A DNA stretch of 64,000 bases from the NCBI GenBank assembly GCA_903929355.1, contig CAIYUN010000009.1, forward strand, positions 1 through 64,000, in the 5' to 3' direction. The position numbers and the translations under genes were made by a program. Below the pieces are notes generated by a model, which did no database searches, was not told where the DNA came from, and saw nothing but the letters and a program-made list of their open reading frames with translations. Below, in pieces: positions 20,954 to 23,900 of this stretch (the first letter of the stretch is position 1; each line of letters starts with the position of its first letter). Source of the DNA: an uncultured Opitutaceae bacterium. Lineage in GTDB: Bacteria > Verrucomicrobiota > Verrucomicrobiia > Opitutales > Opitutaceae.

Positions 20954-23900
20954 TCACCCCACCCACGCGCGCGCGTTGTAAAACAGCTTCATCCACGGCG
21001 AGTCCTCGCCCCAGTCGGCCGGATGCCAGCTCAGCGCGCAGGTGCGGAAAACCCGCTCGGGGTGCGGCATCATGATCGTCACCCGACCGCTCGTCGTCGT
21101 GAGCGCGGTCATGCCGAAGGGTGAACCGTTGGGGTTCAGCGGATATTGCCCGGTGACCTGGTGGTGATTGTCCACGAAGCGGGCCGCGACCAAGCCGGAG
21201 TCGCTGCAATGCCGGGCGGCCCCCGCGTCCGCAAACTCGGCGTAACCCTCGCCGTGCGCCACGGCGATGGGGAGGACCGAGCCGGCCATGCCGGCGAAAA
21301 AAATACTCGGGCTGGGCTCGATCCGCACCGAGGCAAAACGGGCCTCGAAACGCTCCGACTGGTTTTGCACAAAGCGCGGCCAGTGGCCCGACCCGGGGAT
21401 GATCGAGTGGAGATTGCTCATCATCTGGCAGCCGTTGCACACCCCGAGCGCCAACGTGTCCTCCCGCGCGAAGAACGCCGAAAACTCCGCCCGGGCGCGC
21501 TCGTTGAACAGGATGCTCTTGGCCCAGCCCTCGCCCGCCCCGAGCACATCGCCGTAGCTGAAACCGCCGCAGGCCGCGAGGCCGCGGAAATCCTTCAGCG
21601 AGATCCGCCCGCTCAGAATGTCGGTCATGTGGACGTCAATGGCCGTGAAACCGGCGCGGGTGAACGCCGCGGCCATCTCCACCTGCCCGTTGACGCCCTG
21701 CTCCCGGAGGATGGCAATCGGCGGACGGACAGAACTTTTCCAGGCGGGAACAGAGGAAACTGAGATCGGAGAGCCCGGACTAGTTGGCTTTCCCCCCTCT
21801 GTTTTCTCTATTACCTCCTGTAAAAATGGCATTGAGAAGGTGAGTTTGGGCGTGATGCCCGGATCCGTGCGGTCGAGCCGCACCTGCTGCTCCTGTTCGG
21901 CCGACGCCGGGTTGTCGCGCAGGGCGGCAATGCGACGGGTCACGTCGGACCAGATGCCGCGCAGGGTGATGAGGCTCTCGTTGTAGATTTCCTGGCCGGC
22001 ACGCCGGATCCGCAGCGCAAAATGGGGGTTGGGTGTGCCGATGCGCGTGGTGCAGGCCTTGAAGCCATGGGACCGCAACACCAGGTGGACCTCGTCGAGG
22101 TCGGCGGCGCGAATTTGGATGACGGCCCCGAGCTCCTCGCTGAAGAGCGCACTGAAGGCGTTGTGCCCGGCGGGAATTTCAAGATCCACCCCGACATGGC
22201 CGGCAAACGCCATCTCCACGATCGTGGCCAGCAGGCCGCCATCGGAGCGGTCATGGTAGGCGAGCAGCTTTTTCTCCCGGCCCAGCTGCTGGATCGCGTT
22301 CCAGAAATTCTTGAGGTCGGCGGCGCGGTCCACATCCGGCGTGACCTGCCCCATCTGCGACACCACCTGCGCCAGGATGGAGCCGCCCAGCCGGTTCTGC
22401 CCGCGGCCGAGGTCGATCAACAGGAGAATCGTTTCACCTATCGGTTCGGAGTTTTTACAGGAGGCAACGGAGAACGGAGCATCCGGATTCCGAGCCTTGG
22501 ATTTCTCTGTTCCCTCTGTTCCCTCCTGTAAAAATGGTTCGGAGGGATCGGATTGCAGTTGCGGCGTGAGGGTCAGACGCACGTCGGTGACAGGGGCGAA
22601 GGCCGAGACGATCAGTGAGATTGGGGCGGTCACGCGCCGGGCCGCGCCGGTGGCGGGGTCGGTCCAAGCGGTGCTCATGCTCATGGAGTCCTTGCCGACG
22701 GGGATGGTGATCCCGAGGGCCGGGCAGAGTTCCATCCCGACCGCCTGCACGGCGGCGTAGAGATCGGCGCCGTCACCGGGGACGGCCGGAGCGGCCATCC
22801 AGTTGGCGGAGAGATTCACCCGGCCGATGTCTCCAATCTGCGCGGCGGCGAGGTTGGTGAGCGCCTCACCGACGGCGAGGCGGGCCGAGGCGGCGGCGTT
22901 ATTGACCGCCACCGGGGTGCGTTCACCCACCGCCATCGCCTCGCCAGTGTAGACGTCGAAGGTGGCGGCGGTCACGGCACAGTCGGCCACGGGCACCTGC
23001 CACGGGCCGACCATCTGGTCACGACAAATGAGCCCACCGAGGGTGCGATCGCCGATGGAAATGAGAAAGGTCTTGTCGGCCACAGCCGGGTGCGAGAGCA
23101 CGAGCCGGATGGCCTCGGCCAGCGACAGATCGCCCAGATCGAGGGGATGTTGCGGTCGGACCAGCGTGGTGTCCACGCGCGCCATGCGCGGCGGTTTGCC
23201 GAGCAGCACCTCGAGCGGGAGGTCAATCGGCGTGTTGTGGAAGTGCGGATCCTCCAGCACCAGCTGCTTTTGCTCTGTCGCCTCGCCGACGACGGCAAAC
23301 GGACACCGCTCGCGCCGGCAGAGTTGCTCAAAGACGGCCAGGCGGGCGGGCGGGACCGCGAGAACATAGCGCTCCTGCGACTCGTTGCACCAGATCTCAA
23401 GCGGGCTCAAGCCTGGCTCGTCGTTGGGGATCCGGCGCAGATCAAACCGTCCGCCCCTCCCGCCGTCGTGGACGAGCTCGGGGAGCGCGTTGGATACGCC
23501 GCCGGCGCCGACATCGTGGATGAACGAAATGGGGTTGTCGTCGCCGAGCGCCCAGCAGCGGTCGATGACCTCCTGGCACCGCCGCTGCATCTCGGCGTTG
23601 TCGCGCTGGACGCTGGCAAAATCGAGATCCTCCTGGCCCGCGCCGCCGGCCATCGAGCTGGCCGCGCCGCCGCCGAGACCGATGAGCATGGCGGGCCCGC
23701 CGAGCACCACGAGCTGGTCGCCGGGATTGATCGCCGCTTTCTGGACGTGCCCGGGCCGGATGTTGCCCAGGCCGCCGGCCAGCATGATCGGCTTGTGGTA
23801 GCCGCGCAGCTCCGCGGGGGCTGCGATTGTGGATTGCGGATTGCGGATTGCGGATTGGACGGAAGCGGAGGATTGGGCGGCGGGGACTTTTTGTTCGAAC

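Follow-up and report, generated by a model that had tools for sequence, protein, structure and literature searches.

In-frame palindromic elements in the purL gene of an uncultured Opitutaceae bacterium and recurrent filling of two PurL loops across the family

The gene for phosphoribosylformylglycinamidine synthase, purL, in a 64,000-nucleotide stretch of DNA from an uncultured Opitutaceae bacterium (contig CAIYUN010000009.1, positions 1 to 64,000; hereafter the window) carries two palindromic segments within its reading frame. Both are probably copies of one dispersed palindromic element, designated family A, present as coding insertions like those of Rickettsia palindromic elements (RPEs) and repetitive extragenic palindromes (REPs), and PurL is probably a gene in which such repeats have landed recurrently. 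The two segments belong to one family, the family is dispersed, relatives lack the segments, the reading is open and in frame, filling recurs at two loops of the protein and the reading phase is shared. An earlier note on the window had proposed an in-frame dispersed family, which stands, and a single open phase, which does not; the recurrent landing of many families in many genera had escaped it.

The purL gene (20954..25087, minus strand) comprises 1377 codons without a stop, and its product aligns over its full length with the PurL structure 1t3t except at the inserts. One element (22452..22534, minus) occupies what is termed here site 2, between PurL residues 847 and 886, and has inverted arms at both ends; the other (21735..21826, minus) lies at site 3, immediately ahead of where the glutaminase part begins, with one arm intact and the distal arm degenerate (CTTTTCCAGGCGGG). 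As the earlier note had it, the two are of one family and share a 13-mer, CCTCCTGTAAAAA, found at 21814 and 22522, with its reverse complement at 22452; both lie in one open purL frame. RNA folding of the two elements (minus strand, with a few flanking bases) gave -36.3 and -38.6 kcal/mol. In the purL frame 21735-21826 reads as 30 residues and 22452-22534 as 27, and since the elements measure 92 and 83 nt, the purL flanks complete the frame. Both other frames of the purL strand contain stops in 21735-21826, whereas in 22452-22534 a second frame is also open, so that the claim of closed alternative frames holds for the first element and not for the second.

Alignment with 1t3t matches query residues 1-847 to 10-830 and 886-1377 to 832-1303, leaving residues 848-885 of site 2 opposite a single residue (831); the flanks LTPQL and LLLIDLG are contiguous in 1t3t, bearing out what had been supposed of ordinary PurL. 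At site 3, residues 1087-1113 correspond to six residues (1036-1041) of the PurL chain 6lyk, which is nearly identical to 1t3t. Ordinary (Salmonella-type) PurL thus lacks most of both segments. An AlphaFold2 model of a 606-aa PurL piece had a mean pLDDT of 49.9, low in conserved parts too, and was not used.

Dispersal of family A is evident from the genome search suggested in the earlier note: the exact 13-mer has 23 copies in the 3.8-Mb genome, three in purL and 20 outside it, compared with none for the reversed control. A relaxed arm pattern gave 29 extra matches. Within the window a copy had been placed between genes at about 61460; it is indeed present outside genes (61461..61490, plus strand, downstream of a minus-strand frame at 61515-63536), but as a single arm rather than a full palindrome. 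The arm consensus derived from 65 distinct palindromes, tTTTTACAGGAGGaAACgGAGggAACgGAG, is about 30 nt long and consists of an end tag (TTTTTACAGG) followed by 9-nt-periodic units. The loop between the inverted arms spans 8-56 nt without evident conservation, and of the 84 forward arms at 80 loci from the matches listed, 53 are paired with an inverted arm 40-400 bp away; terminal inverted repeats, as in miniature inverted-repeat transposable elements (MITEs), are therefore present. In the fetched loci of the window's genome, family A arms are frequently found next to further repeat modules, TTTTAACCACTGATnnnCACTGAT for instance. At five single-arm loci of the window's own genome outside purL (L008, L010, L012, L016 and L017; designations in L and G are our handles for loci and genomes), the surroundings are mosaics in which TTTTAACCACnGATnnnCACnGAT, TTTTAGCGCGAAGGCGCGAAGG and GGACGGAG units are chained to arms.

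Of 150 Opitutaceae genomes, 27 contain a 16-base arm pattern, whose exact form was absent from all five congeners surveyed (70-98% complete). In a sample of the phylum it occurred in seven of 387 genomes, one of them outside the family. A scan using one genome per species (84,980 species) returned at least 110 stretches with the arm pattern, those listed being, by title, verrucomicrobial (95), from Planctomycetota (7), from one deltaproteobacterial metagenome-assembled genome (6), from an organism given only as bacterium (1) and from Christiangramia (1), with no Rickettsia among them. The Christiangramia echinicola stretch (L186), the only Bacteroidota match listed, encodes GDTAQLPPVK and looks like a chance occurrence.

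The two loops have been filled repeatedly across Opitutaceae. PurL was matched in 144 of the 150 family genomes, six being without a match, and 91 PurL genes were read, from part of these matches and from other searches, the arm scan among them. Eighty-four were kept, including the window's own and one from another family; G051, G066, G098, G137 and G146 were dropped because the longest frame of the retrieved stretch did not resemble purL, STC_40 as identical to G138 in the compared columns, and G003 for too little sequence. With a short loop defined as fewer than 22 residues between anchors, site 2 has 47 short loops and 35 inserts that fall into 11 families, besides one loop left unassigned and another that is ambiguous, while site 3 has 41 short loops, 37 inserts assigned to 12 families and six unassigned. 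The comparison proposed in the earlier note therefore shows that the segments are not universal; the opposite case, in which all purL genes of the group carried them with no similarity to intergenic DNA, was not seen, short loops being common and 20 of the 23 exact 13-mers lying outside purL. Some short loops keep repeat-like pieces or remnants (site 2 of G068 and of G002). At least two insert families occur within six genera at site 2 and within eight at site 3, and G014 and G072, with 97.2% PurL identity, nevertheless have loops of 5 and 49 residues. Hairpins with z<-3 were found in 40 of 80 loops of at least 22 residues, compared with 14 of 480 other windows of the same genes. In two genomes nearly the same insert stands at both sites, as if one site had seeded the other: RGAMTAEDSNPNSSISQ..SAVSAPLR in G077 (L210) and PTEHTEPTAAGSVKSDQSVVKN in G143 (L207).

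Several of the other insert families are likewise dispersed, as counted for families F and G and for an AACAC/AACGC-type pattern representing part of families B and C, genome-wide counts including the purL copies. Family F has 15-81 copies in the five genomes whose purL insert was assigned to it (control 0) and 21 in G139, where an F-like stretch closes the site-3 loop; of the seven other genomes searched, two have 9 and 29 copies and five have none. Family G (GTAGCCGGGGTC...) has 9-107 copies in five carriers and 0-9 in six others (control 0), the lowest carrier and the highest non-carrier overlapping. Sixteen of 30 genomes contain the AACAC/AACGC-type pattern (control 0), its matches including the purL copies of G057, G090 and G040, the last having only one copy beyond purL.

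The shared reading phase is a further regularity. All 37 scorable left arms, from five 9-nt-periodic families, are read in one phase, as ACn-GAR or GCn/AAR variants (T-E, T-K, A-K), and 36 of 37 right arms are read as the S-V type; independent phase events are fewer than 37 owing to shared ancestry. Openness was computed for family A: of 122 strand readings of its palindromes outside purL, 55 are open in the T-E phase and 47 and 36 in the remaining two, and where the palindrome length is divisible by three, T-E is the phase least often open (5 of 46, compared with 26 and 19). Because other phases are open about as often, stop avoidance alone does not explain the phase bias. Family A is also read in another phase elsewhere; with this and the second open frame in 22452-22534, the assertion that only this phase is open is not supported. 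In the fetched loci there are 21 open readings through family A palindromes outside purL, 20 of which were domain-scanned, and in only one is the element flanked on each side by protein domains: an HrpA-like DEAH helicase (DUF3418; L084:442-4767, minus) with the element at 3180-3260, between the Helicase_C and HA2 domains, and in a phase other than that of purL. In L078, L128 and L175 the element precedes the domain, and the true start may lie downstream of it.

Taken together, the favoured reading is that non-autonomous family A copies, spread by machinery acting in trans, would have been placed in two tolerant loops of PurL. Most insertions in genes would be lost and only those keeping the frame would survive, the element then presumably adding 27 and 30 residues to the translated protein. 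The loops would tolerate inserts when both frame and peptide are acceptable, and a surface position and such tolerance may be the cause of the recurrence. Within Opitutaceae, different repeat families, including GTAG-tagged ones, would repeatedly have entered both loops, replaced one another there or been lost. Repeats inserted in frame have been described mostly as single examples spread across numerous genes. In the PurL of this one bacterial family, inserts would have been gained, exchanged or lost dozens of times at the same two loops, in some instances between close relatives (97% PurL identity). With dozens of events in one assayable enzyme, the route from selfish DNA to protein and any selection on phase or peptide become testable, statistically and at the bench.

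A number of results weigh against this interpretation. The insert families were defined by motifs written after the loops had been seen, which weakens the labels; in addition, G132 was set to B by hand, G021 was set aside as ambiguous at site 2, and unassigned loops were treated as missing. Half of the long loops (40 of 80) have no significant hairpin. Filled loops of differing families and genera share RYDP...IGD flanks, which most short loops are without and which would not be expected from clean insertion into a short form. The AACAC/AACGC-type pattern is absent from G008, G132, G148, G070, G072, G043 and G076, all assigned to B, and excludes TTAACCAC arms, so that dispersal is demonstrated for only some of the families. 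The one control gene, purF (25305..27239, plus strand), speaks for PurL as a hot spot, but a single control makes thin evidence: no internal insert of at least 10 aa was found in PurF in 30 of 30 genomes, mostly chosen for their PurL inserts, and in nine of the 30 the match runs past a stop codon.

Further points against it come from family A itself. Flanking direct repeats of at least 6 nt, as a sign of target-site duplication, occur in two of 66 palindromes (1.37 expected), and no conserved flank exists outside the arms (at most 0.15 bit per position). A 9-nt direct repeat beside the site-2 element was considered as a target-site duplication, and did not generalise to other palindromes. Arm covariation reaches z>2 at positions 10, 14, 19, 26, 29 and 30; position 14 alone among the five that are clearly degenerate shows covariation, and position 22 departs in the opposite direction. 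With four of the five lacking it, strict maintenance of the hairpin is not supported and was abandoned as an explanation. Fetched loci of the window's genome comprise 21 single arms and only three palindromes, two of these in purL. The Y1_Tnp transposase domain (PF01797) was considered as a candidate mobiliser of family A, but its presence does not track the family: it occurs in 20 of 22 genomes, with or without family A, it is absent from G021 despite six family A matches, though that assembly is only about 97% complete, and no transposase link was found.

The shared flanks point to another explanation, which is quite possible although we regard it as having less than an even prospect. An old long-loop allele with RYDP...IGD flanks may have been passed on by descent and moved between species through homologous recombination, its content being overwritten in place by gene conversion between 9-nt-periodic families, with the phase kept. 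Filled loops have the common RYD...IGD flanks where short loops have QQVED, ITDAED or QREAD, which leaves room for in-place exchange by recombination, and the identical phase of all 37 left arms in five families accords with such conversion. So does the distribution of insert labels, which are nearly random on the PurL tree (90 tips, median support 0.94): Fitch parsimony requires 30 changes at site 2 and 32 at site 3, compared with shuffled means of 34.1 and 36.1 and shuffled minima of 30 and 32; changes in such numbers also count in favour of repeated insertion. Insert types G, H, I, M and N, however, have no 9-nt units with which to convert, and in G017 similar flanks (RHDAAVGE) occur without a repeat.

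A wider proposal is tentative and, in our estimation, somewhat doubtful. PurL of Opitutaceae may offer two docking loops to successive and diverse mobile repeat families, some of them perhaps undescribed; where these are 9-nt-periodic, a phase-locked filter or phase-keeping gene conversion would let no reading but T-E/S-V persist. One undescribed superfamily of mobile palindromes across several phyla might then unite the CAC/AAC-GAG families (A, B, C, D and F). If this were true, a core enzyme would continually be receiving new peptides from selfish DNA.

That the T-E.../S-V... peptide is itself a selected module, kept for some role such as spacing, solubility or contact and for which PurL recruits repeats, seems unlikely. 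The uniform phase of left and right arms in purL, in spite of other phases being open outside it, would fit such a role, but many related PurLs have only a short loop, and other peptides (HGRDARAT, AGVADPG, STLNSQ) occupy the same loop. Moreover, a phase bias would equally arise if selection did no more than remove basic or proline-rich loops, and shared ancestry reduces the number of independent events. An ordinary clade-specific extension of a low-complexity loop, unrelated to mobile repeats, is very improbable: loop lengths do vary between species, hairpins are lacking in half of the long loops and a few loops are unassigned (two at site 2, one of them ambiguous, and six at site 3), yet dispersed copies with zero controls for the tested patterns already contradict it for A, F and G, and the inverted-repeat structure and the differing families in congeners also speak against it. 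An artefact of assembly or binning is scarcely credible, given inserts at these loops in the single-contig genomes G007, G008, G087 and G127, even though G000 is a 91-contig assembly and many relatives are multi-contig.

Among the closest known systems are the RPEs, short dispersed palindromes found in frame inside genes and in spacers (PMC3733652). Family A is likewise palindromic, dispersed and present both in frame in a gene and outside genes, the likeness drawn here being one of organisation; it differs in belonging to another phylum, in its 9-nt-periodic arms and in that the two PurL loops have been entered by many families. The parallel drawn in the earlier note therefore appears apt, as an RPE-like working is suggested by analogy for a dispersed, in-frame family in Verrucomicrobiota that ordinary PurL does not have. 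In the verrucomicrobial Opitutus terrae, GTAG REPs have been described inside uvrA and inside genes for DNA ligase and an RNA helicase (Di Nocera et al. 2013, PMC3733652). PurL insert family G and most of family H similarly begin with GTAG, whereas family A and the other CAC/GAG-type families do not; the family A arm consensus has no terminal GTAG (or CGTC) tag and its flanks are unconserved. The same source reports that recB of two Xanthomonas species carries different REPs at about the same site; no nearer precedent was found, and the main text does not mention purL.

In REPINs, REP-based elements, the mobile unit consists of two inverted repeats and a spacer, with single arms as remnants (PMC3116915). 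Family A also has two inverted arms with a spacer, plus single arms, but its arms are 30 nt long and periodic, and no association with a REP-associated tyrosine transposase (RAYT) was found from presence across 22 genomes. Enterobacterial RU elements are small, non-autonomous, MITE-like repeats inside genes (PMC2759123), resembling family A in being non-autonomous repeats within genes and differing in that family A lacks a target-site duplication. A literature search of titles and the beginnings of abstracts, with most subscription papers outside its reach, gave no description of these purL inserts.

Apart from the family A elements, purL contains a third extra stretch at site 1, where a run of GGATTGC heptads (23825..23857, plus strand) is read on the minus strand as SAIRNPQS and forms an insert block in the alignment, most of this query stretch being unmatched in 1t3t. 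The site 1 loop is variable in relatives, in which SALSDQPQS- and NSKSQTPNP-like peptides are found.
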